Origin: a virus
Reading direction: 5' to 3' (one strand)
DNA length: 33,967 nucleotides
Virus record (IMG/VR): IMGVR_UViG_3300028025_004450
Location: 1 to 33,967 of that record
The notes beneath the pieces are model-generated. The model saw only the letters and a list, made by a program, of their open reading frames with translations, was not told where the DNA came from and did not search any database. A program made the translations under genes and the position numbers. Of this stretch, positions 2,596 to 24,949 are shown piece by piece. How positions within the stretch are numbered: position 1 is the stretch's first letter; every line of letters starts with the position of its first letter.

Positions 2596-3045
2596 CTAAA
2601 CGTTAGGTGGAAGTCCCACAGCAATAATATTAACACCAATAGTTGAAACACCAGTTGTGCCAAATTTAGCTGATACGGTTACGTCTGTAGATGTAATGCT
2701 CTTAATTGTAAGAGTTACGTCAGTACCGCTTTTTGTGTCTGAAGTGTTTTGGACAGTTGCTGTAACAATTGGAGGTGTTGAGAATGCTTGATTAAAAGAA
2801 ATGCTGGATGTATACTCATCTCCACTCTTAACAGATGTTGCAGAGATAGTTGTATACCCTCCAATAACTTGTGCCTTAAGAAGCTTAGAAGATTTATTTC
2901 CACCAACCTGTCCCTGAAGAACAAAATTATTACTTTGAGTTAGTGCTGATCCTTCTCCTGCAAGATCATTAATGGCCTGTGCCATTGCATAGATATATGA
3001 AAGGTCAAGTGGTTGACCACGTTCTGGTAAAGGTATTCTAGCCAT
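2596..3045 (-). CDS. Small structural protein, possible H-type lectin-like fibre tip
   Basis: This 149-aa protein has a helical N-terminus (LSYIYAMAQAINDLAG) followed by a beta-rich region. The segment FNQAFSTPPIVTATVQN followed by an alternating T/V/S strand pattern resembles H-type lectin-like folds seen at the ends of phage fibres. A repeated TSVKSG/TDVTVSA strand rhythm suits an all-beta trimer. Its position directly after the collar-type fibre gene supports a role in the adsorption apparatus. It lacks a Shine-Dalgarno and has an extended -10 box 6 nt upstream, so it may also be transcribed separately. The lectin assignment is tentative. Confidence 0.6.
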   Translation of the reverse strand: MARIPLPERGQPLDLSYIYAMAQAINDLAGEGSALTQSNNFVLQGQVGGNKSSKLLKAQVIGGYTTISATSVKSGDEYTSSISFNQAFSTPPIVTATVQNTSDTKSGTDVTLTIKSITSTDVTVSAKFGTTGVSTIGVNIIAVGLPPNV

Positions 3046-4901: not shown

Positions 4902-5136
4902 TTCCTATTACCGCCTTTGCTTCTTCTATAGTTAATCCAAGTTGTGCAAGTTTTTCAATTGCAGATTCTCGGACTGTTGCTCTATCTAATTCTTCTTGTG
5001 TACGAGACTCAATTTCTATAGCAATTTGTTCATATTGAACAATTTCTTGTTCTGTTAATGGAACAAGATAAACAGGGACAACAGAATCGTTGGGGGTAAT
5101 GTCTAAAGGCAAATTTAAATCACTCATGATTTCCAT
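4894..5136 (-). CDS. Small fibre-associated protein, possible chaperone
   Basis: This protein has 80 aa, or 77 aa from an alternative ATG at 5127, which forms an ATGA overlap with the upstream stop and begins MSDLNLP. Both starts have a plausible ribosome-binding site (AGGTG or GGATGG). The N-terminus resembles the MADLNFP start of the next fibre protein. The rest is a charged helix with a predicted coiled-coil character, ending in a UBA-like LAQLGLTIEEAKAVIG segment. Small helical proteins between fibre genes are often fibre assembly chaperones. That role is inferred from position and shape only. Confidence 0.65.
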   Translation of the reverse strand: MEIMSDLNLPLDITPNDSVVPVYLVPLTEQEIVQYEQIAIEIESRTQEELDRATVRESAIEKLAQLGLTIEEAKAVIGIG

Positions 5137-6155
5137 CCAAACACCTGTAATCTACCACTCATTGTTCCTGAAGATGCAGCAATTGCAAACCCATCAAAGT
5201 CTGCTCCTACAAAATAATCGTGAACAGCCGCAACGCTGTAAGATGTATTAGCGGTGTTGTATCCAGACGCTGTTCCTGTAAATTTTGTGCGTACTGTTGC
5301 TATATTTGGAGAGTAAACATCCATACTCATTGAGTTGTCCCCAGCACCTGAAAGCAAATACCAGACAGTTGTAGATTGTGCTTGCCAATTTGACGGTGTT
5401 CCACTTCCTATTTGTTGTACACCATTAGTTGAGTAAACTGATTGTGCGTCTGTAACTCCACCTTTTCTAAGTTTCATAAGCATTTGAACACTAACTCCAC
5501 TTGTAATAACAAAGTTAATATGATAATCGCTATATTGACTAGAAAAAATACCATCTAAACGCAATTCACTAGCTCCAGATAGTGTTACAACACCAGTTGA
5601 TGAGACGCTTGCTGAGCCACTAGCAACTGTAACTGATGTTGGAAGAAGAGGGACAAGACCCGAACCTAGTGTTACACCTGTTCCACCACTAGCAATACCT
5701 AAAGGAGTTGAAAGAGTTACAGAAGTAAAGGTATTAGATTGCTGTGCAATTGTTTGATTAATCTCTACCCACTGTGCAGCACCAGTACCGTCATCATAAT
5801 ACCTATAAAGTCTTGCATCTTCTGGATCAAACCACAACGCACCGTCTGTAGCTGGTGAAGGCTTTGTTTTTGCAACTGATGCTGCAGCAATTGGTGTTTT
5901 GTTCGTCCATTGACCAGTGTCATAAACAAGAGCCTGATCGTCTTGAGGGTCGTCAATATTTACATCTGGAACAGTAGAATAATATAAACTGTTCCAGGCA
6001 GTTGTTCCATCACCAATTTTTACCTGTTTGTTTGTAAGGTCATAACCCATTTCTCCTTTACGAAGAACAGGATTTTGAGCTGTCCAAAATTCTGCAGACG
6101 CTCTTCTAAGTTGAATAACTGAAAAGCCAGTTTGTGGGGAAGTGTAGTCTGTCAT
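5124..6155 (-). CDS. Tail fibre with Mtd N-terminal-like domain
   Basis: In this 343-aa protein, residues about 13-62 match the pattern of the N-terminal domain of the major tropism determinant and hyaluronidase-like fibres: IQLRRASAEFWTAQNPVL, then KGEMGYD and KIGDGTTAWNSL. This domain usually trimerises and attaches the fibre to the baseplate. The middle is threonine/serine/glycine-rich beta structure (ASGGTGVTLGSGLVPL). The C-terminal 150 residues are a beta-sandwich-like receptor domain of unknown ligand. It overlaps the previous gene by 4 nt. No reverse transcriptase or variable-region signature was seen, so there is no sign of a diversity-generating retroelement despite the Mtd-like domain. 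Confidence 0.8.
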   Translation of the reverse strand: MTDYTSPQTGFSVIQLRRASAEFWTAQNPVLRKGEMGYDLTNKQVKIGDGTTAWNSLYYSTVPDVNIDDPQDDQALVYDTGQWTNKTPIAAASVAKTKPSPATDGALWFDPEDARLYRYYDDGTGAAQWVEINQTIAQQSNTFTSVTLSTPLGIASGGTGVTLGSGLVPLLPTSVTVASGSASVSSTGVVTLSGASELRLDGIFSSQYSDYHINFVITSGVSVQMLMKLRKGGVTDAQSVYSTNGVQQIGSGTPSNWQAQSTTVWYLLSGAGDNSMSMDVYSPNIATVRTKFTGTASGYNTANTSYSVAAVHDYFVGADFDGFAIAASSGTMSGRLQVFGWKS

Positions 6156-14165: not shown

Positions 14166-14810
14166 TTAAACCTCTTCCAATGAAAGAGATACATTCCAAA
14201 AGTCAAAATTAGTTGCTCCACGTTTTTCAATGGTATAAGAAAAATCTGAAAAGAACACTTCTACAATTTCGTTATACTTTAAAAGGTTTCCATAATCTGC
14301 GGTAGTCTTTCCAAAATTATCATACTTGTCATATGCGAGGTATACCCAAAAAGATCCAGTATAGTTTTCATACCAATCTAAAAGCTCTACACCCCCAGCT
14401 CCACCATCAGAAGTATGAGAAACACCACCATCAATAGCAACACCGCTAGAGTTAAAGGTTGGATTTACATCAAATGCTCTTGAAGGAAGTCTTTGCCAAG
14501 AAGTAGAAATACCCAGCTTGTCTGCAACATGATATGAACGCATACGACCATTAACAGTTCTTTCCCTCTTTTCAATACGACTTGGCTTAATATCAATTGG
14601 TTGCCTATTATCATCTGATAAAATTAAAAACTCGTCTGCACCAGTAGAATAACCAGAAGAGTTAATTTCCTGGCCAAGAGGAATATAAAATTTATTCGTT
14701 GCGTCTCCTGGCTCTTCAACAATAGTCCCAGGGTTATTTGCAAAAAGCATTGCTTGGGGTCTACTGTATTGTTTACGACCTTGCATGTAAGCATAACTGT
14801 TAGCTACCAT
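14166..14810 (-). CDS. Distal tail (Dit-position) protein
   Basis: This 214-aa protein lies between tape measure and hub, which is the Dit position in siphoviruses. Dit forms the ring joining tail tube and baseplate. The sequence is beta-rich, with RERTVNGRMRSYHVADKLG in the middle and a C-terminal FDFWNVSLSLEEV strand of the kind that pairs in ring-forming tail proteins. Its ATG overlaps the tape measure stop (TAATG), and the hub begins directly at its stop, so all three are translationally linked. It was assigned mainly by gene order. Confidence 0.72.
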   Translation of the reverse strand: MVANSYAYMQGRKQYSRPQAMLFANNPGTIVEEPGDATNKFYIPLGQEINSSGYSTGADEFLILSDDNRQPIDIKPSRIEKRERTVNGRMRSYHVADKLGISTSWQRLPSRAFDVNPTFNSSGVAIDGGVSHTSDGGAGGVELLDWYENYTGSFWVYLAYDKYDNFGKTTADYGNLLKYNEIVEVFFSDFSYTIEKRGATNFDFWNVSLSLEEV

Positions 14811-17800
14811 TAAAACCTATTGCTCCTAATTCTTTGTGCATCAACCTGTTTGATCTGTGCAAGTACTGTGTTTGCAATTTCTCTTGGGTTTGCATTAGTA
14901 CTTGCATTAACGCTAATACTATAATTATACACTGAATCAAATCTGTTGTTTGAGTTTCTGTCATACCCTCGATTTAGTTCTGCCAGTCTACCTGCACCAA
15001 GCTTATCTACTGCAGGTTTGCTCATTACAAATTCTCCTGCGGTAAGCATAGCAGGAATTGTGTCAGTCCCCTTTGCAAGCATATTTGCAATACCACCCAT
15101 AGCCATATAAGGGACCATGCCTCCACTATTCATATATGACATCATTCCACCCTTTTTCATGTATGAAACGAGTCCGCCCTTTGAGTAATAAGTGTCAACA
15201 ATGGCTTGCACAGCAGCGTAGTCGGCCCCAAGAGCATTTCTTCTTGCTTGACCGTTGCCAAACTCTCCACGCATAACTCTTTGAGCCATATCATTTAACC
15301 AAGCAGCACTACGACCTGTTGCGGCAGGTGCAGGTGGTGGAGCAGGTGGTGGGGGAGGAGGAGTATAAACACTTTGAACAGTAGCTCCAGCTAGTGCAGC
15401 TCCAAGTTGAGTCGCAATAGAAAGTGCTTGTCTCATTGACTCTTGGAATTCGTAAGTCTTAGTATTAGCAAGTTCAAGACTTGCGTTTATAGAGTTCCAT
15501 TCATCTTTTGTTTTTCCAAGAACTACAAGAGCATCAATTTGATCCTGTTGCATTCTATCAAGAAGCTCCATTTGACGCTGAGCAGGTTCAACTCTTTTTT
15601 CTTCAATTTCAAGAATTTGTGCTTTAAGGTCACGAATCTTTTCTTCAATCTGTTCTCTTGTTAGACCACTTGTTCCAGTAAGACCTTCAATTTCTGCTTT
15701 TCTTGCTTCGTCAAGAGCAGTTCTTTGATCTGCAATTGAGTTTAAAGATCCCTGGGCTTGCATGTCTTGTGCTGCTCTAGCAGCTGCTGCAATATCACCA
15801 GTAGACAAAGCATTCGCAAGTCCAAGTTGTGATTTTTGCTGAGAAATAATTCTGTCATTAATTCTAGAAACTTCGTTAAGAGCTTTTGCTTTTTCATCAT
15901 AAGCTTTATTAATTTCAAATTCTTTGGCAGCAATTCTTTGAAGATCTGCATCTAAATCATCAAGACCACCAGCTCTATTTTGAATATCAGATATGGCTCT
16001 TTGTCCTGCTTCAACAATGTCTTTGAGTGGATCTTTTTGAACTTTAAAGTTTAGCTCAATTACGTTTTGTTGTGCAGAAAATGCTGCAGCTGCATTGCTC
16101 ATACCCTTTTGCCAAATATCTTGAAGCCCAGGAATCGTAACTTTATTAATATTAAACTCATAAGTTTTTGCATTTTGTGCATCAATTAATGCTTGATTAA
16201 GTGCAGCTGGATCCAGTGTTGGTGTCATATATAGTCTTGCTGCATCAGCATTTTGAAGCAAGAATGTTTTTTGAGTGTCTGTAAGGGTTTTATCTGCTGC
16301 TAGTTTAGCTGCAAGAGCATTCTTGTCCTTAGTCTCCATTAATGAATTAGAAACGCTTTGAGCTGCTGCCAAGTCTTTTGTTGCTTTTTCAGCTTCCCTA
16401 GTTTTAGCAACAAGTTCAGCAAGCTGTTCAGTACTTGCCTCACGAGCAATAAGGGCTGCATCTTCCGCATTACTTGCAATTGCATATGCATCTGCAAGGC
16501 TTAGGCCAGCTGCCACAAGTTTTCTAACTGCAGATGTTTGGTCACCGATTGCCGTAATTCGTTTTTGTTGGTCTGCAATAACATCAACAACTGTTCTTGG
16601 TGGAGGCTCTGGGCTTCCACCACCTCCTCCTCCTGATGTATCTCCTGTGTCATCATCACCTGTGTCACTTACATCTGTGTCGTCTGTGCTTGTTGTAATA
16701 GATGTTTGAGCTTCACTTGCAGCAAAGTCTACAATGCTTTTACCCTTATTTGTCTCTAACCATTTTAGATACGCAGGATTATTTTTATCACCAGTTGTAG
16801 TAAAGTTAGTTGTAAAGTTCATAGCAAACGATGCCTGATCTTTTTCTGGAATTGCATCCCATTTAGCTTTAAGTTCTTGAAATTCTGCTGAAGCTGTGTC
16901 GATACCATTTGTGTCTGCTAAAAATTGAAGGCTAATTTTTGGTTGTTTCTTTAAATCATTTACCCTCTTATTTATTAATCTTAAGGTTGCACCAGACTTA
17001 TCTTTCATAACAGTTTCAAGTTGAAGTCTACGAATTTTTGGATCACTGTTGGCTTTGCTAATTTGAGTTAATGAATTTGTAATTGCTTGTTGACCTGCTT
17101 TATCTTGCTTAACAAATACATCGGTTTGGAATTTTTGAACCATTTCTGGATTGTCTGTAAATTGACTATATACACTAGAAAGATCAGCATACTGTGCTGG
17201 ATCCATATTAATTTGAAGATCAAGCATTTGCTGAATTGACTCTGTGCTACCACCAAAAATTTTCATCATGTTTGCCATTGTTGCTGGGTCTAGACCTGTA
17301 TCGCTTCCAAGATTAACAAGCAGTTGAGCTTCTTGAGTCTGTGTCGCATTTGCGTTTCCGATAATATTGTTTGCTACATTTGAAGCATTTTGCTGTTGTC
17401 CAGTATCTCCCTCATATCGTCCTGCAATATTTTGCTTAAAACCTTCAACCATTGCATCATTTCTGCCCTTGTCAAGTTGTGGGGTAACTGTTGCCACTTG
17501 TCCATATAGCTCTTGTTGTTTTGCAATAATTCCAGATGTATCTTCTCCTGGCTTTGCTGAAGCAAGGGCTTGCTGAATAGAGCTTAGCTGTGAACTAAAT
17601 GCCTGTGCATATGTTGCACCTTCATATCCTACTGCTCCTGCTGAAGTAGTCCCTACGTTTGCACCACTTTGAACAACCTTTCCACTTGCATCTGTATATG
17701 TAGATACAGACCCCTTTATTCCAACAACAGTAGATTTTTTGCCGACTAGATTACCTTCTGAATCATAGAACTCTTGCCCAAGGCCATCTTTCTTTGTTTT

Positions 17801-20800
17801 AGTTTCATCAATGGGTTTTCCTAAAATATCGCTAGCAGCAGACTCTACAGTTTTTGCTTCTTCAATGCTGTCAATAACGTTTTGCCAAGCACCCTCAGTT
17901 TCTTCAATAATTTTTATTCTAACGCCAATTGGATCTTTTGTGAGGTCTTCTCCGTTTGGACCAAGAAGCTCCAGAAGTTTTCCGTTTACATCCATTCCAA
18001 ATGTGGTATCGCCCATTTCTGTTGCTATTGCTGAAACAACGCTCCTTGCATCTACAGCGTTCATTGCACCAGAAGCCACGGCATTGGCCATTCTTGAAAC
18101 TAAAAGATTTTCTGCATTCGACTTTCCGACCTTATTAATTGATTCTTGAGTTGCTGCAACCTGTTGCTTATTTTCACCTTGTTCTAGATAAGCCTGTCCA
18201 AACGTAATCTTTCCAGATGTTGATACACCGCCCTGTCTTTCAGAACGATTTCTCATTTCAATCTCACCAGCTGTTACGTTTCCAGTAGCTTCAGCAAACG
18301 ACTTTAATGATTTTGCACTAGTTCCCAAAGCATTTCCTAGTTCTACTGCTTTTTTGATTCCATCGTTATATTGCTGAATGGACACTCCAATTGCAACAGC
18401 AAAAACTCCAAGAACTGCAACTACAGCCATTAGTGGTCCTGGTAGCATTGCTAACATTGGTCCAACTGTTGATAGAATCATCATTGGTCCAGACAACGCT
18501 CCTGCGATCTGACCAACAGGCCCCTCTACTCCTTGTGCCATCATGAGTCCCATAGATGCTCCCATGCCAATGCCAGCACCCTTACCACTCTTTACAAACT
18601 CACCAATTTTTCCTGGAGCTGCTTTAATTGCAGAACCAGCTGATTGTGCTGCTGCAGCTGCAATTTGTTTTGCACTGTTTGCAATTCCTATTGCTGCTTG
18701 TTGTGCAGATATTGTCATATTTTTTACAGATGTTGAAACTTTAGTTGCAGCATTAATTGAAAAATCTTTCATAGACATTGCAGCGGCAACAAGACCATTT
18801 TTAGCAGAAGTAGCAGCATTTTGCAACATTGTTATTGGAGATCTTGCTAGCTGTAACTGTGCAGACATATTCTTAATATTAGTACCCATGATACTAAAGT
18901 CACCGTTAAGTTTTTGAATTGGTGATGCAGAAGCAAGGAGTGTAGCTATTGCACCAGAAGACATCATCTTCTTGCTTTGCTGTTCAATAAATGCTTTCAT
19001 GCTTCCAGATACTACTGGAGCTACTTGTGGTACACGACCAAATGCAGGATTGGTATTAACTTTTCTATTTGCTATTGCTTCACCAGCAGACTTGGCTTTT
19101 GCTATGCCCTCTTTTGCACCTTCTGTAAATCCTTCAGAGTGAGCAGCACCAACCTTCTTTGGCACTTTAGCTGGAGAGGCCACACCGCCTTCTTCTTTTG
19201 CACCTTCATTAAATGCATCTTTTTGTTCTTTAACAGCTTTTTTACCAGCAGTTCTTGCAGCCTTAACGCCTTCTGGTGTTGAAAAGTCTCCTGGCTGTAG
19301 GTCTAAGTACATAGGTCCTCTTGGAAGTGTAGACCTTACACTATTTGTAGTTCTACTTTTTCCTGGCTTTGATCCCATTGCAGCATCTACAAGTGCTGCG
19401 TCTTCTGGATTTCTTTCTTTATATTGTTGCTGTTCTTTTGTTGACCAAGAAACCCTAAATCCACCAACAGTATTTTCAGCTCTTCTGATAGCTGCCTTTG
19501 CCCTATTTTCTGGCATTTCAGCCATAGCTTTTTTATGAACTTTATCTAAGTCTGTATCTGAGATTATTGCAGATTTACCAGCTGCTAGTTGTGCAGCTTC
19601 TAGTTCTGCAATGTACTTTCTCATTGTTGCATCATATTGCTTTATTTCTTCTTGAAGCTGTGGATCATCAAATGCCTCTTCTGCCATTTCAAAAGTTGCT
19701 CTCCACTTTTCAAGGCCGCCTCTGTCCCAATCTGCAAGAACTTCTTGAATTTTTGCATTACCATTTTTCATAGCAGAATTTATTGCCATTAATTGATCAA
19801 AGAAGAATGAAGACTCTGCTGTAAGCTTTGGACTAAAACCTTGACTTTGAGCTTTTTCAACTACAGAAAACATATTCTTTTCTTTTGAACTTGGTGTTCC
19901 AACTAATTGCCTTGCTTCTGCTGGAGAAACCTCTCTTGTTGCCCCAACATGTTGTTGACTTATTGATCCAGCTTGTCCTAATTGAGCAGCTATAACCTTT
20001 CTTCCTAATTCAAGATCATTTTCTGTAAAGAATTTTTTAAGCTTATCTCTTGTTGGCTTAGCTTCTGCTTGTTCAAACTGTGCTAATGCTTGGTGTAAAC
20101 CATCTGTCAGTCCAAGCTCTATTGCCTTGCCAAGGCTGTCTGATAGCTGTTCTTGCAGTCTTGCTTGTGACCCAGTAGCTGCTTTAGAAACAATTCTTCC
20201 TATAAGCTCTTCTGTTCCCACTTCATCTGTTCCTAGCTTATACCCTGGAAGATTACCTGCAATCATTCCTCTAATAAGTGGTCTGTACTTTTCTGCTTGC
20301 TTCTTTGGAATTACCGCTTCGCCAGGGGTAAGTAGAGCAGGAACAGTGTCTTTGTTACCTGTACCAGGAACCATTTGAGAACCAGAAGCAAATTTAAGTG
20401 GGTCAAATACATTAACCCCTAGACCTGCAACTGCATTTCTATTGTCTTCCATGTCGTCAAAGAATGCTTCAAGATCATACTCGTCCATAACATTCTTAGC
20501 CTGTACGGCTTTTAGTTCTGCCGTGCTTAGTCCAGAAAGTGACTTGTCTGCAATATCTCTTGAAATAAGCTTTACATTTTTTGGATTAATGCCAAGTGCC
20601 TTTAGGTGGGCAGTTGTCATTGGATCCATAGTGTTTGGTCTGGCAGTCATAATAATAATCTTTTTGCCAGCAGCCTGTGAATCCAAAAGATTCTGAATAA
20701 CCTTTGGCATTGGTGCTGCACCCTTAATTGCTTCCCAGCCCCAACTCTTACGTTGTTCTTTTGGAAGCTTTGCATTAGCTTCTCTGTGTCCTGGCAGGAA

Positions 20801-23800
20801 GCTTGACAAGTTAACTAGTGTGTCGTCAAAATCGTAGCCCCTTGCTACAGGTTTCTTTGTTACTCTTGATGTTCCTCTTGCAAGCTTTTGTGGCTTAGGC
20901 TGAACTGCTGAGTGAATACCGTGGAATTTTGACCAGTCTACATTTCTACCTTCCCTTAGTCTGTCAACCATTTTCTGATATGCTGCAATTTCTTGTGGGT
21001 CTGTTAGCCCAAAGCTTGCAATAGTTTGTTGAAGTTTTGGCAGAACAGTATCAATTTCAGAAACAATCATATCGTTATACTGTTGTGGGGTCATAGACTT
21101 TGCAATGTCTGCAGTACTTTCTGCAAATGCTCTCTTTGCTCCTCCACGAACGGCAAGAAGGTTAATATTTGCCTGTTCTTCCATTGTTGGCATTTGTGGG
21201 GCAAAGTCACGGAATCCAGAAGCTCTGTCAAACACACCAGCAGTACCAACATCAGCCAATACGTTTGAATACATGTTAGACTGTGAAAGATCTTTGTCAC
21301 CACGAAGTAGAGATGCTACAAGTTGCTTTCCCATTTCTTCTTTTGTAAAAGTTCCAGTTGGATTTGCTAGTGCTTCATCAAAAGGTGACTCTAATGCAAA
21401 GACTTTTCTTTGTCCCTTTTCATCATTAGGATCTTTCATTACTCTTAGACTTTGCTGTGGAGTCTTTAGTCCATGTGCTTCACGAGCAATTTGTGTAGCT
21501 CTTAGCTCTGCAACTGCTCCTCGTTCATCCATTTGTGGTTTAACAAACACAAGAGAGCCATCTGGCTTACGGTAAAGGCCTCCCATTGCCTTATTGCCAT
21601 AAGGGTTGCTTTCAAAGTCTGGGAAGCTGTGTCCTTTACTTGGAGAGATAAGCTCACCAAAATCAGTAACAGGCATCTTTGACCTTTTACTCTTTTTGAA
21701 TCGCTTGAAAATTTCCATGAGTGGATTGCCAACAATTCCACCTTTAGAGAATCCTGGAACATTGCCAGCAATAAGACCTTCTACAAGACTTCTGTTAGCG
21801 GCAACTTGCTTAGCTGGAATAACTGCTTCACCATTTGAAAGCATTGCAGGGATTGAATCAGAAGTGCCTGTACCTGGTCCACTTATAATTCCTCCACTAG
21901 CTTTTTTAACTGGAGCTGTTCTTCCTACAGTACCACGATTTACTGGTGCAGACATAAATCTACCCTGAGCAACTGATGCTTGCTCATAGGCAGTAATTAG
22001 CTGTCTAATTGCAGCCCTCTCAGATGTAAACGCTTGTGTCAAACTATTGTGTGCTTGCTCTAGAGATGCAGCTGCAGCCATAGCGTTAATCTGTTCTTGC
22101 GACATGTACTTAGTTTGTTCACCAAGGACCTTAGACTGTCCACCTAATCTTTTAAAGAAGTTAAAAAGACCCATAAGGCCTTTAATTAGGTTTGCTGCAC
22201 CGTTAGCAATAAGACCAAAGCCCATCAAAAGAATTGGTCCAAGACCTGCTACAGCACCAACAATAAGCATTGTAAAGTTCTTTGCACCGTCTCCCCAACT
22301 ATTAAAACCATCAAGAAGCTGTTTTCCCCATTCAATAATGGGAGTGATAAGCTTTAAGAATGCTTCTCCTACTGGAGCCAGTGCAGCTTGAAACTTTTCT
22401 AATGCCGCCTGAAATTTGAACATTGGAGAGTCTGCAACTTTTTTCATTTCTCGTTCAGATAAGATTGAAAGCTCTACGGCGGACCTTGCTGTTAACTCAA
22501 GTACACGACCTGCCTGAGTTCCGTCTTTAATAACATTCTGGAATAAAGTAGACATACGAGCAAACTGAAACTTTCCAAAAAGTTGTTCAATTGCCTGTGC
22601 TCTGTTTGTTGGATCAAGTCCGTCTAGGGCTAAACCTAGATCAACAATCATCTGCTTTACATTGCCCTTGTTTCCATCCACAATTCCCTGAAGATTAACG
22701 CCAAACTTGGCAAGCATTTCTGTTGCTGCTGTTGTTGGATTAATCATAGATGCAAGACCAGACTTAAGTGCGTTAGCACCTTCAGAGGCGTTAATACCAC
22801 CTTCACGCATGGCTGTAAGGAAGAATGCTAGGTCTTTTACATCTCCACCAAGTTGTTGAATAACTGGAGCAGCGGTTGGGATAGCTGTAGTTAGGTCTTC
22901 AATAGAAGTGACTGTTTGGTTTTCAACTGCGTTAAGAAAGTTAATGTCTTTTGCAAGATCTCTAGTTGCAGTACCGAATGCACTTGTAAGAGAGATAGTT
23001 GTTTCTAGGGCTTTTTGTTGATCTACCCCACCTAGCACAGCAAGCTTTGATGCTTGATCAACTTGTGCTAAAAGATCTGCACCAGTTTTACCCATAGCAG
23101 CTGCGTCAGCAGCAAGACTCATTGTCTTTTCAACAGCTAATCCGTATGTTGTATATGCATTAGCAAGGCCTTTAATCTCTTCAACCATCTTGTCGGTTTC
23201 ACCAGTTGGAGTAAAGGTGTCTCCATATACACGCTTAAATCTAATAGCCTGTTCTTCAAGTTTCATAAACTCTCTAGCAGCTGCTGCACCAGCAATTCCA
23301 AGCGGAATAGAAAAACCAACCATAAGCTGACGACCAGCCCACTGGGTGTTCTTACCAAAATTTAGAAGGTTTGTAGAGCCTTGCCTCATTAACTCATTAA
23401 AGAGTTGTTGTTTCTGTGCAGCAATAGCTGTCTTTGTTCCAAGATCCTGTAGATCAAGTGTTAGTGGCCTAATGGCAATTGTCTTAATTGCACCATTTGC
23501 CTCAGTGCCAAGTTTAATATATTGAGTCTGTAAATCTTTTACACGTTCTCTAGCAACCTTATCAATAGTTGCCATTTCGGTTTGAAAGACCTTGCCGAAT
23601 GTTTTTGTAGATGCCCCAGCATATTTAAAATATTCTCCAAGAGAAAACTTGTTCTTCTCAAGGGATGTTGTAAAGGCATCTGCACTACTTTTAACATTTC
23701 TAAAACCTGCTGAAAAATTTCCAGTAGCATTAAGAGAGTTAACGAGTTCTTTTTGAAGTTGTGAAGAGGTAGCAGCAGCTTGTGCTCCACCTCTAGCCAT

Positions 23801-23902
23801 TGAGGTGTGGAAGGCTGATATTTCGGACTGGAGTCTCTTAATAGCTGCAAGAGCATTAGACGTATCAATATTTACATTAATATTGGATTCAACATCAGCC
23901 AT
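14810..23902 (-). CDS. Tape measure protein with embedded enzyme-like domains
   Basis: At 3030 aa this is the largest gene. Residues about 244-457 form the TP901/PhageMin_Tail core (AAMGKTGADLLAQVDQA, MREGGINASEGANALKSGL). Hydrophobic stretches lie at about 537-577 and 1807-1842. Between two copies of a GT-x-D-[ST]-[IV]-PA-[ML]-L-x-x-GE-[AF]-V repeat (about 667-723 and 1170-1226) lie a possible kinase-like region (about 760-930) and a HAD-like domain (about 1020-1165: DFDDT, MTARP, FFDDMEDN). A Gly/Pro linker (about 2421-2432), a coiled-coil region (about 2520-2790) and a proline run (about 2846-2862) follow. A CW_7-like motif (about 2866-2905), four tandem GG-x-x-x-YM repeats and a third PAML repeat end it. 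The ribosome-binding site AGAGGTG fits the ATG at 23902. The core sets tail length; the added domains may act on cell wall or host during genome entry, which is inference. Confidence 0.95.
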   Translation of the reverse strand: MADVESNINVNIDTSNALAAIKRLQSEISAFHTSMARGGAQAAATSSQLQKELVNSLNATGNFSAGFRNVKSSADAFTTSLEKNKFSLGEYFKYAGASTKTFGKVFQTEMATIDKVARERVKDLQTQYIKLGTEANGAIKTIAIRPLTLDLQDLGTKTAIAAQKQQLFNELMRQGSTNLLNFGKNTQWAGRQLMVGFSIPLGIAGAAAAREFMKLEEQAIRFKRVYGDTFTPTGETDKMVEEIKGLANAYTTYGLAVEKTMSLAADAAAMGKTGADLLAQVDQASKLAVLGGVDQQKALETTISLTSAFGTATRDLAKDINFLNAVENQTVTSIEDLTTAIPTAAPVIQQLGGDVKDLAFFLTAMREGGINASEGANALKSGLASMINPTTAATEMLAKFGVNLQGIVDGNKGNVKQMIVDLGLALDGLDPTNRAQAIEQLFGKFQFARMSTLFQNVIKDGTQAGRVLELTARSAVELSILSEREMKKVADSPMFKFQAALEKFQAALAPVGEAFLKLITPIIEWGKQLLDGFNSWGDGAKNFTMLIVGAVAGLGPILLMGFGLIANGAANLIKGLMGLFNFFKRLGGQSKVLGEQTKYMSQEQINAMAAAASLEQAHNSLTQAFTSERAAIRQLITAYEQASVAQGRFMSAPVNRGTVGRTAPVKKASGGIISGPGTGTSDSIPAMLSNGEAVIPAKQVAANRSLVEGLIAGNVPGFSKGGIVGNPLMEIFKRFKKSKRSKMPVTDFGELISPSKGHSFPDFESNPYGNKAMGGLYRKPDGSLVFVKPQMDERGAVAELRATQIAREAHGLKTPQQSLRVMKDPNDEKGQRKVFALESPFDEALANPTGTFTKEEMGKQLVASLLRGDKDLSQSNMYSNVLADVGTAGVFDRASGFRDFAPQMPTMEEQANINLLAVRGGAKRAFAESTADIAKSMTPQQYNDMIVSEIDTVLPKLQQTIASFGLTDPQEIAAYQKMVDRLREGRNVDWSKFHGIHSAVQPKPQKLARGTSRVTKKPVARGYDFDDTLVNLSSFLPGHREANAKLPKEQRKSWGWEAIKGAAPMPKVIQNLLDSQAAGKKIIIMTARPNTMDPMTTAHLKALGINPKNVKLISRDIADKSLSGLSTAELKAVQAKNVMDEYDLEAFFDDMEDNRNAVAGLGVNVFDPLKFASGSQMVPGTGNKDTVPALLTPGEAVIPKKQAEKYRPLIRGMIAGNLPGYKLGTDEVGTEELIGRIVSKAATGSQARLQEQLSDSLGKAIELGLTDGLHQALAQFEQAEAKPTRDKLKKFFTENDLELGRKVIAAQLGQAGSISQQHVGATREVSPAEARQLVGTPSSKEKNMFSVVEKAQSQGFSPKLTAESSFFFDQLMAINSAMKNGNAKIQEVLADWDRGGLEKWRATFEMAEEAFDDPQLQEEIKQYDATMRKYIAELEAAQLAAGKSAIISDTDLDKVHKKAMAEMPENRAKAAIRRAENTVGGFRVSWSTKEQQQYKERNPEDAALVDAAMGSKPGKSRTTNSVRSTLPRGPMYLDLQPGDFSTPEGVKAARTAGKKAVKEQKDAFNEGAKEEGGVASPAKVPKKVGAAHSEGFTEGAKEGIAKAKSAGEAIANRKVNTNPAFGRVPQVAPVVSGSMKAFIEQQSKKMMSSGAIATLLASASPIQKLNGDFSIMGTNIKNMSAQLQLARSPITMLQNAATSAKNGLVAAAMSMKDFSINAATKVSTSVKNMTISAQQAAIGIANSAKQIAAAAAQSAGSAIKAAPGKIGEFVKSGKGAGIGMGASMGLMMAQGVEGPVGQIAGALSGPMMILSTVGPMLAMLPGPLMAVVAVLGVFAVAIGVSIQQYNDGIKKAVELGNALGTSAKSLKSFAEATGNVTAGEIEMRNRSERQGGVSTSGKITFGQAYLEQGENKQQVAATQESINKVGKSNAENLLVSRMANAVASGAMNAVDARSVVSAIATEMGDTTFGMDVNGKLLELLGPNGEDLTKDPIGVRIKIIEETEGAWQNVIDSIEEAKTVESAASDILGKPIDETKTKKDGLGQEFYDSEGNLVGKKSTVVGIKGSVSTYTDASGKVVQSGANVGTTSAGAVGYEGATYAQAFSSQLSSIQQALASAKPGEDTSGIIAKQQELYGQVATVTPQLDKGRNDAMVEGFKQNIAGRYEGDTGQQQNASNVANNIIGNANATQTQEAQLLVNLGSDTGLDPATMANMMKIFGGSTESIQQMLDLQINMDPAQYADLSSVYSQFTDNPEMVQKFQTDVFVKQDKAGQQAITNSLTQISKANSDPKIRRLQLETVMKDKSGATLRLINKRVNDLKKQPKISLQFLADTNGIDTASAEFQELKAKWDAIPEKDQASFAMNFTTNFTTTGDKNNPAYLKWLETNKGKSIVDFAASEAQTSITTSTDDTDVSDTGDDDTGDTSGGGGGGSPEPPPRTVVDVIADQQKRITAIGDQTSAVRKLVAAGLSLADAYAIASNAEDAALIAREASTEQLAELVAKTREAEKATKDLAAAQSVSNSLMETKDKNALAAKLAADKTLTDTQKTFLLQNADAARLYMTPTLDPAALNQALIDAQNAKTYEFNINKVTIPGLQDIWQKGMSNAAAAFSAQQNVIELNFKVQKDPLKDIVEAGQRAISDIQNRAGGLDDLDADLQRIAAKEFEINKAYDEKAKALNEVSRINDRIISQQKSQLGLANALSTGDIAAAARAAQDMQAQGSLNSIADQRTALDEARKAEIEGLTGTSGLTREQIEEKIRDLKAQILEIEEKRVEPAQRQMELLDRMQQDQIDALVVLGKTKDEWNSINASLELANTKTYEFQESMRQALSIATQLGAALAGATVQSVYTPPPPPPAPPPAPAATGRSAAWLNDMAQRVMRGEFGNGQARRNALGADYAAVQAIVDTYYSKGGLVSYMKKGGMMSYMNSGGMVPYMAMGGIANMLAKGTDTIPAMLTAGEFVMSKPAVDKLGAGRLAELNRGYDRNSNNRFDSVYNYSISVNASTNANPREIANTVLAQIKQVDAQRIRSNRF
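14950..15105 (-). repeat. Tape measure internal repeat, copy 3
   Basis: This stretch encodes KGTDTIPAMLTAGEFVMSKP followed by a conserved helical tail. It is the most divergent of three copies (the others are at 20225-20392 and 21735-21900). The motif is common in tape measure proteins of Gram-positive phages and usually marks domain borders. Confidence 0.75.
15074..15183 (-). repeat. Tandem 9-residue repeats in tape measure C-terminus
   Basis: Four consecutive units have the form [SKNA]-[KSM]-G-G-hydrophobic-x-x-[YM]-[ML]: KGGLVSYM, KGGMMSYM, SGGMVPYM and MGGIANML. They lie between the CW_7-like motif and the third PAML repeat. The glycine/methionine-rich hydrophobic pattern may be flexible or membrane-interacting. 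Confidence 0.8.
20225..20392 (-). repeat. Tape measure internal repeat, copy 2
   Basis: This stretch encodes PGTGNKDTVPALLTPGEAVI, then KKQAEKYRPLIRGMIAGNLP and GYKLG. It aligns along its whole ~56-residue length with copy 1 at 21735-21900, including the IAGN-[VL]-PG-[FY] end. It closes the segment that contains the enzyme-like domains. Confidence 0.85.
21735..21900 (-). repeat. Tape measure internal repeat, copy 1
   Basis: This stretch encodes SGPGTGTSDSIPAMLSNGEA, then AANRSLVEGLIAGNVPGFSK and GG. It opens the segment holding the kinase-like and HAD-like regions and is matched by copy 2 at 20225-20392. The direct-repeat flanks suggest the segment could have been gained by homologous recombination. 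Confidence 0.85.
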
Positions 23903-23920: not shown

Positions 23921-24232
23921 TTAACCGATAAGGTTTGTATCTGACAGCTTAACGCCAGAAGCCTCTTCTACAATCTTATAGACTGTAGGAAGGTCAAGGT
24001 TATCCTCCAAAGCTTTTAGGTCCTCTGAAATTTCAGGCTTATACTGCTTCATAGCAATCTGGACACACTCCATAAGAATACTCATAGACTTGTCGTTATC
24101 ATCAGCTACCTCGGCAATAGCCTGGAACTTCTTCATAAATGGACGAAGTAGCGAAATCTTTAGGGGTCGCACACTAATGGTTTGTCCATCGATAAGAGTG
24201 ATAACCTTATCTTCATTTACAGTTGTAGACAT
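23921..24232 (-). CDS. Tail assembly chaperone paralogue (short form)
   Basis: The protein has 103 aa from the ATG at 24232, which is preceded by a strong AAGGAGG site; an upstream in-frame codon at 24268 would add 12 residues without a ribosome-binding site. It aligns with the N-terminal half of the gene at 24272-24949: VRPLKISLLRPFMKKF against ISPLKIKFLREFMIEF, CVQIAMKQYKPEIS against CVAVCMKQFRPEIS, and TVYKIVEEASGVKLSD against MIYKIIEFAANIKLNE. Tail assembly chaperones (lambda G/GT role) bind the tape measure protein during tube assembly. Its position directly before the tape measure gene fits. Confidence 0.82.
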   Translation of the reverse strand: MSTTVNEDKVITLIDGQTISVRPLKISLLRPFMKKFQAIAEVADDNDKSMSILMECVQIAMKQYKPEISEDLKALEDNLDLPTVYKIVEEASGVKLSDTNLIG

Positions 24233-24258
24233 TAAATCCTCCTTGTTTGTCTTAATCA

Positions 24259-24267
24259 ATTGTATCA
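24259..24267 (-). promoter_or_regulatory. Possible extended -10 promoter for the short tail chaperone
   Basis: The minus strand reads TGATACAAT, 26 nt before the ATG at 24232, with a full Shine-Dalgarno in between. It resembles the TGNTATACT boxes but would give a transcript with a short leader. No clear -35 is seen. The AT-rich context makes chance occurrence possible. Confidence 0.35.
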
Positions 24268-24271
24268 TAGA

Positions 24272-24949
24272 CTAGTCCCATTTTTCATAGGACAATCCTT
24301 GACCAATACCAAATCCTGCCATATCTGCATTTACTCCTTGTAAAGCAAGTACGTCCCTTGGATCAGTTGTAGCACCTTTAGTAAATACTTTTGTTTTTAG
24401 TTTTTCCCATGCATCTGGCTCACCAGATTGTGCATCAAGGTCTACTCCCTGAATTGCAGCAAAAAACTTTTTTTCTTTATAGTCTAGTTCTCTTTTTGAA
24501 CTTAGAGTAAGTGTTACTTCTGGTAAAGAAAGTGAGGATTCCAGCTCTTCGTAGTCTTTCCAATTCCCCAGCAAAAACAACTCACCTTCAATTGCTGCCA
24601 AATCAAACTCCGACCAGGAAGATCCTTTTTCTGCTTGCTCTTTTACTGGTTCTTCTGAGGCTTCGTTTAGCTTAATGTTTGCTGCAAACTCAATAATCTT
24701 ATAAATCATAGACATGTCGCAAACATCTTCTACTAATTCTTTGGTTGATATTTCTGGTCTAAACTGTTTCATACATACCGCTACGCATGATGCAAGTCTT
24801 TCAATTGCCTCTTCATCATCCCTTGCCATTTTTACGTTTTCAAACTCAATCATAAACTCTCTTAAAAATTTAATCTTAAGAGGAGAGATTATTAACTTGT
24901 GTTCATCAAGAAGTTCTACTTCGCAAGTTTCGTATATTTTTGTAGCCAT
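24272..24949 (-). CDS. Tail assembly chaperone (long form)
   Basis: In this 225-aa protein, residues 1-95 are a helical G-like domain, a linker rich in E and K follows (about 96-110), and residues about 111-170 carry a tryptophan-containing region (WSEFDLAAIEGELFLLGNW and KKFFAAIQGVDLD) typical of the longer GT-type chaperone. Normally the long form arises by -1 frameshift from the short form. Here it is encoded in one continuous frame, and a separate short paralogue follows. It sits between tail tube and tape measure genes, the standard chaperone location. There is no Shine-Dalgarno; an extended -10 box 6 nt upstream suggests leaderless translation. Confidence 0.82.
   Translation of the reverse strand: MATKIYETCEVELLDEHKLIISPLKIKFLREFMIEFENVKMARDDEEAIERLASCVAVCMKQFRPEISTKELVEDVCDMSMIYKIIEFAANIKLNEASEEPVKEQAEKGSSWSEFDLAAIEGELFLLGNWKDYEELESSLSLPEVTLTLSSKRELDYKEKKFFAAIQGVDLDAQSGEPDAWEKLKTKVFTKGATTDPRDVLALQGVNADMAGFGIGQGLSYEKWD

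Follow-up and report, generated by a model that had tools for sequence, protein, structure and literature searches.

The virus record IMGVR_UViG_3300028025_004450 of IMG/VR, hereafter the window (the whole 33,967-base stretch of DNA that was analysed), encodes a tape measure protein (TMP) of 3030 amino acids that carries a HipA/CtkA-like kinase-fold domain followed by a HAD-superfamily phosphatase domain, both within a region whose contents differ between related phages. We consider it very likely that this kinase-HAD pair is an exchangeable cassette, gained, lost and moved among related phages. The best explanation, in which we place moderate confidence, is that the variable region is a slot for exchangeable effector cargo brought in by the tail, for which we infer both delivery and substrates.

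The TMP gene (14810..23902, minus strand) is a single uninterrupted open reading frame (ORF). An earlier note on this DNA, written from the letters alone, had proposed a kinase next to a phosphatase in this protein, and both the ORF and the motifs it quoted were found exactly where it had put them; the observation proved firmer than the note had claimed. What the note could not see is that the pair very probably exemplifies a slot with exchangeable cassettes. The protein matched TIGR01760 (6e-26, 91 bits against a cut-off of 28.8), PhageMin_Tail (1e-23) and PHROG 10030 (2e-95), its gene is syntenic with those of Stanwilliamsviridae, and its profile, length and flanking tail and head genes are those of a TP901-type TMP.

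Kinase-fold and HAD phosphatase domains

The kinase-fold domain (residues 736-1010; 20873..21697, minus strand) contains the motifs VFVKPQ (residues 785-790), LLRGDKDLSQSN (865-876) and VFDRASGFRDF (890-900). Residues K788, E799, R867, D869, D871, L872, N876, D884 and G886 were without variation in all 122 distinct kinase homologues (a smaller kinase alignment comprised 82 sequences), and this set reads as a protein-kinase-like pattern, with a lysine in a strand, a glutamate in a helix, a D-x4-N catalytic loop (D871-N876) and a D-x-G metal site. The candidate ATP-binding lysine that the earlier note had picked out in VFVKPQ is the invariant K788, and the catalytic D...N spacing it described holds for D871 and N876. 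Its metal-binding aspartate was misplaced: D892, in VFDRASGF, is present in just 43 of the 122 homologues and was rejected as a metal ligand because it is unconserved, whereas D884, in 'LADVG', is invariant and is the metal aspartate.

An AlphaFold2 (AF2) model of the kinase alone, built from 67 sequences, had a predicted local distance difference test score (pLDDT) of 92 and a predicted template modeling score (pTM) of 0.91, and showed N-lobe strands, the lysine in a strand and the glutamate in the next helix, and a helical C-lobe with five helices after DVG. When this model was compared with the PDB using Foldseek, CtkA chains were the top matches (probability 0.97) and nearly all other listed matches were kinases. 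A kinase-like fold, of the HipA/CtkA/protein-kinase type, is therefore very probable, and the domain is probably an active kinase. It shares with HipA/CtkA-type Ser/Thr kinases the order Lys, Glu, D-x4-N and second Asp, CtkA being its best PDB fold match, but differs from them in having no Pfam HipA match, low template modeling (TM) scores and only 8 residues from the catalytic-loop asparagine to the metal aspartate.

Single-sequence searches of Pfam, PHROGs, NCBIfam and the PDB gave no significant match to the kinase, the HipA Pfam domains did not match it at E-values up to 10, and a PDB profile search built from 18 kinases returned nothing usable. Matches to IcmE and to a glycosyltransferase in the PDB were set aside as repeat or chance matches. 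The domain would represent a new protein-kinase-like family that is missed by current annotation.

The HAD phosphatase domain (residues 1015-1170; 20393..20860, minus strand) has the putative catalytic residues D1024, D1026, T1086 and D1149-D1150 in the motifs DFDDTL (residues 1024-1029; window 20833-20816), MTARP (1085-1089) and FFDDMEDN (1147-1154). Its family matches exceed chance: Pfam Acid_phosphat_B (PF03767) matched with an E-value of 3.8e-8 (33.6 bits against a curated cut-off of 27), and PHROG 415 'polynucleotide kinase' aligned over its phosphatase part (E 3.7e-7). Motif I (DxDDT), MTARP and the DD pair of motif IV, T1086 and D1149-D1150 included, were kept in all 13 distinct HAD domains, as was a lysine in the motif III region between T1086 and D1149-D1150. 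Catalytic aspartates were thus retained in homologues of both domains, namely in 13/13 HAD domains and, as D871 and D884, in 122/122 kinases.

Structure prediction, which the note had suggested, also covered both domains together: an AF2 model of residues 735-1175 (alignment of 52 sequences) had a mean pLDDT of 90 and a pTM of 0.66, and its PDB fold matches (E 1.5e-5 to 1e-3) were HAD phosphatases, including acid phosphatases, a plant vegetative storage protein and the T4 Pnkp phosphatase, the last with a TM-score of 0.75 by target length. We are highly confident of a HAD fold with likely phosphatase activity. The HAD homologue L131 was 27-31% identical to PNKP-type proteins of Gordonia and Mycobacterium phages, and phage PNKP-type proteins are a plausible source of the domain. 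Fold and motifs are common to the window HAD and phage PNKP 3'-phosphatases (T4 Pnkp, Gordonia phage 'polynucleotide kinase'), but the window HAD has no P-loop kinase partner, is embedded in a TMP and in Pfam fits Acid_phosphat_B better.

We also noted BFVD structural matches to the kinase-HAD model in proteins of uncultured Caudovirales (A0A6J5S481, A0A6J5S5M9, A0A6J5MJB0 and A0A6J5PWC9). The matched proteins are portal, prohead protease, PI3/4-kinase and ADP-ribosyltransferase proteins in which the matched domain is not assignable to kinase or HAD, a hint that virion proteins of other kinds contain similar domains.

Both domains are under purifying selection. The median ratio of nonsynonymous to synonymous substitution rates (dN/dS) was ~0.11 for the kinase (60 close pairs) and ~0.11 for the HAD domain (8 close pairs), from pairs with dS <1.5 that share sequences and are not independent. 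Given the invariant catalytic residues and these ratios, a main role of the cassette as inert spacer or ruler filler was rejected.

Variable slot, cassette exchange and distribution

Among related TMPs, homology is continuous to about residue 640, after which 350-1385 residues vary in length and content before a second conserved core begins. In the window TMP this slot covers residues 640-1750 and contains recurrent 'GTSDSIPAMLSNGEAVI' modules, which we call plug modules. A profile search over 121 TMPs located the first at residues 667-724 (GPGTGTSDSIPAMLSNGEAVIP...; 21731..21904, minus strand), marking the upstream slot boundary, the second at residues 1170-1224 (20231..20395, minus strand), marking the downstream cassette boundary, and a third near the C-terminus at residues 2935-2979 (14966..15100, minus strand). 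The 'GPGTGTSDSIPAMLSNGEAVI' module usually opens the slot, and additional copies often border cassettes: a plug module lay within 110 residues upstream of the kinase in 43 of 74 kinase-bearing TMPs and within 60 residues downstream in 20 of 74.

The nearest relative, the sister TMP L010, is 69% identical up to residue 723 and has neither kinase nor HAD; its homology breaks at residue 723, directly after the first plug module. On a tree of core 1 (FastTree, 117 rows), kinase presence changed at least 11 times and HAD presence at least 4 times, and the kinase itself lies at about residue 740, 1000 or 1350 in different TMPs. The rest of the window slot (residues 1225-1750; 18653..20230, minus strand) is a further variable module of unknown function, to which weakly related segments fill the slot in other TMPs. 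What else the slots contain falls into clusters for which family matches were few or weak. Single slot members in other TMPs weakly matched an acetyltransferase, DUF3626, a SPOUT methylase and a cytidyltransferase, and slots may hold other enzymatic cargo. A short 'H[IVL][GQ]' motif (FAHIGPG, FSHIGGM, KSHLQGD, QQHVGAT) recurs near the start of otherwise different slot modules in L010, L016, L021 and window residues 1225-1750; these modules possibly represent a common unrecognised domain.

The kinase family was found in TMPs of uncultured phages. A tblastn search of 50,697 phages and 72,556 plasmids found no recognisable relative of the kinase, nor did a scan of bacterial genomes, and none of the isolated phages among those 50,697 records carries the kinase-HAD pair, in agreement with the note, which knew of no described phage with it in its TMP. 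IMG/VR scans with single window sequences likewise gave no relatives, and the family was opened only by an alignment of the TMP core, after which scanning IMG/VR with the kinase returned 385 relatives and scanning with a divergent subset 132 (the sets overlap). Every inspected kinase whose ORF start was on the contig, in both kinase- and HAD-seeded loci, shared its ORF with the TMP N-terminal domain (some contigs recur between scans), indicating that the family is TMP-only among the loci found. We found no report of a TMP kinase in the open-access literature, with subscription papers outside the search.

Sixty dereplicated TMPs sampled irrespective of the kinase included 13 with a kinase and 2 with a HAD domain, and the full set of 121 TMPs included 74 and 16, respectively. 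The kinase lay upstream in all 16 HAD-bearing chains, an independent HAD-seeded scan yielded 15 loci with the kinase in the same ORF in each (15/15), and a HAD without a kinase was never seen in the TMPs found. The two domains adjoin in the window and in L139 and are 300-480 residues apart elsewhere. Kinase and phosphatase might counteract each other, but most kinase-bearing TMPs have no HAD; with the kinase usually present by itself, the HAD may have a target of its own.

Genomic context of the tape measure protein

All genes of the window are on the minus strand, in the order portal, prohead protease, major capsid, tail genes, TMP, minor tail proteins, fibres and DnaB-like helicase. Conserved core 1 of the TMP comprises residues 213-556 (22235..23266, minus strand; TIGR01760 match), and residues 168-470 were 67-82% identical in 80 IMG/VR relatives. 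TMPs of Stanwilliamsviridae (LukeCage, BillNye, Wakanda, Comrade, Faust, Annadreamy) stand in the same virion gene order and have a homologous N-terminal core (~30-34% identity), and on gene order and TMP homology the window phage can be placed near this family of Streptomyces BE-cluster phages. At ~2100 amino acids these TMPs are shorter, the window TMP being ~900 amino acids longer than those of the LukeCage group, and a pattern search found neither plug modules nor the HAD motif in them. BLAST gave no match between them and the kinase or HAD region; only the separate PNK genes of these phages matched the HAD, weakly.

An actinobacterial host is suggested solely by the relation to Stanwilliamsviridae and by a CW_7 cell-wall-binding repeat in the TMP C-terminus (residues 2871-2903; 15194-15292, minus strand; Pfam E 1.7e-9, above cut-off). 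The repeat region additionally matched the end of an endolysin PHROG, and the repeat might hold the TMP on peptidoglycan as the phage enters. A scan of bacterial genomes with the TMP found one relative (42%) in a metagenome-assembled genome labelled as a cyanobacterium, which does not settle the host. Two consecutive ORFs preceding the TMP (23921-24268 and 24272-24949, minus strand) matched PHROG 10504 over their N-terminal 100 residues and look like a duplicated gene at the tail-chaperone position. In the fibre region, one protein (5124-6155, minus strand) has an Mtd_N domain (major tropism determinant N-terminus; E 3e-13) and a small fibre protein (2596-3045, minus strand) has an H-type lectin domain.

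Proposed tail delivery and its alternatives

A slot in which relatives gain, lose and swap domains suggests that the tail delivers ready-made enzymes as infection starts, and we lean towards delivery of the cassette to the host and action there. The 3030-residue TMP has just two strongly hydrophobic segments, both candidate membrane segments, and the entire slot lies between them: residues 542-569 upstream (22196..22279, minus strand; Kyte-Doolittle maximum 2.2) and residues 1812-1845 downstream (18368..18469, minus strand; maximum 2.74). The TMP fills the tail channel, and for siphophage JBD30 it has been proposed that the TMP is expelled and then, on refolding, forms a membrane channel (PMC11445458). 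We postulate that the window TMP would be packed in the tail lumen with its cargo part unfolded or extended, and would be expelled ahead of the DNA. The two segments would then insert into the host membrane as a hairpin, and the slot loop between them would enter the cytoplasm, where the enzymes would refold. The target of phosphorylation by the kinase would be a host protein or small molecule, while the HAD would take phosphate off a protein, nucleotide or nucleic-acid end, a first strike that would favour early infection before phage gene expression.

Several points weigh against this model. The lumen of the tail tube is ~4 nm (PMC9022992), and the domains would therefore need to be in an unfolded state or located at the tip; ejection of the window TMP and passage of its domains are unproven steps that we infer. 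The PDB fold match of the kinase is weak (best E 1.2e-3, TM 0.34-0.40), and these modest values mark it as a divergent family of unsettled affinities. On the TMP tree the link between HAD and kinase goes back to few independent origins, with too few independent pairs for a phylogenetic test, and it rests on the 16/16 co-occurrence and the changes of HAD state. There is also a role at assembly to consider, in which kinase and HAD would modify virion, chaperone or host proteins inside the producing cell and be carried in the tail incidentally. TMP synthesis takes place late in infection and in the cytoplasm, with ATP at hand. Both domains are intact and constrained, and folded domains would fit a 4-nm lumen poorly (PMC9022992), all of which such a role would accommodate. 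An enzyme acting late, however, would not have to be fused to a protein of the tail lumen, yet this kinase turned up exclusively within TMPs, and since 47 of the 60 sampled TMPs do without it, tail assembly does not generally depend on it. Assembly-time activity remains a candidate, but we regard it as unlikely.

Another reading is repair of nucleic-acid ends, in which the pair would do the work of T4 Pnkp, either at the ends of phage DNA or RNA or on host tRNA that defence systems have cleaved. It draws on the HAD half of the cassette: phage PNKP 3'-phosphatases are among the nearest relatives of this domain in both sequence and fold, and these enzymes serve RNA repair in T4-type phages (PMC7824862). 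The note had raised such an end-processing pair, and its HAD half does resemble the PNKP phosphatase, but the kinase half failed. No P-loop (GxxxxGK[ST]) occurs in residues 735-1175, the sole match in the slot lying outside the cassette near residue 1437, and the kinase model matches protein-kinase-like folds and not P-loop kinases, for which reasons a PNKP-type reading of the kinase was rejected. With PF25109 HAD_PNKP also scoring under its cut-off (20.3 against 27.6 bits) and the HAD absent from most kinase-bearing TMPs, end repair is very unlikely. A variant of delivery in which the cassette disarms host immunity, by acting on a phosphorylated alarm nucleotide or a defence protein, would explain the rapid swapping of cargo, and the high turnover of cassettes and modules fits it, as do descriptions of injected anti-defence domains (PMC5512222, PMC7824862). 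Turnover may have other drivers, however, any target is hypothetical, and this specific function seems quite unlikely.

Delivery of effector cargo by the tail has partial precedents. Virion-injected multidomain proteins with kinases have been described (PMC5512222). These 'polyvalent' proteins are likewise large and multidomain, are thought to be delivered with DNA and include some kinases that keep their active site (Iyer et al. 2017, PMC5512222); the window TMP is similarly multidomain, with a virion location assigned by homology. The polyvalent-protein kinase group, however, is without a C-terminal lobe and is reported mainly from Verrucomicrobia-Chlamydia and Bacteroidetes elements, whereas the model of the window kinase has a helical C-lobe and the domain sits in a TMP, a class of protein not mentioned in that paper (PMC5512222). 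Virion-borne polyvalent kinases were thus already known, but we found none described in a TMP. The window cargo also differs from that of other TMPs with built-in enzymes in pairing an ATP-dependent kinase fold with a phosphatase, both expected to work in the cytoplasm. To our knowledge, known TMP-borne enzymes are envelope- or peptide-cleaving hydrolases. The T5 TMP, with its zinc carboxypeptidase, is likewise a tail-lumen protein with a catalytic domain inside (PMC11445458).

This kinase family, absent from the isolated phages searched and invisible to current annotation, would be a case from nature of a long tail tube loaded with enzymes. We tentatively suggest, as a possibility somewhat short of probable, that in this abundant group of uncultured phages TMPs serve generally as a platform for delivering effectors. 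Interchangeable enzymes would sit between two membrane-inserting segments, separated by plug modules, and a new TMP-only kinase family, in some cases accompanied by a phosphatase, would pass through the tail into the host cytoplasm ahead of the DNA. The TMP is usually regarded as a ruler and channel. If the delivery model is true, the widespread TMP-only kinase with its catalytic residues kept, together with the frequent exchange of cassettes, would turn the TMP into a vehicle for protein delivery and would provide a testable handle on phage takeover in the first minutes of infection.

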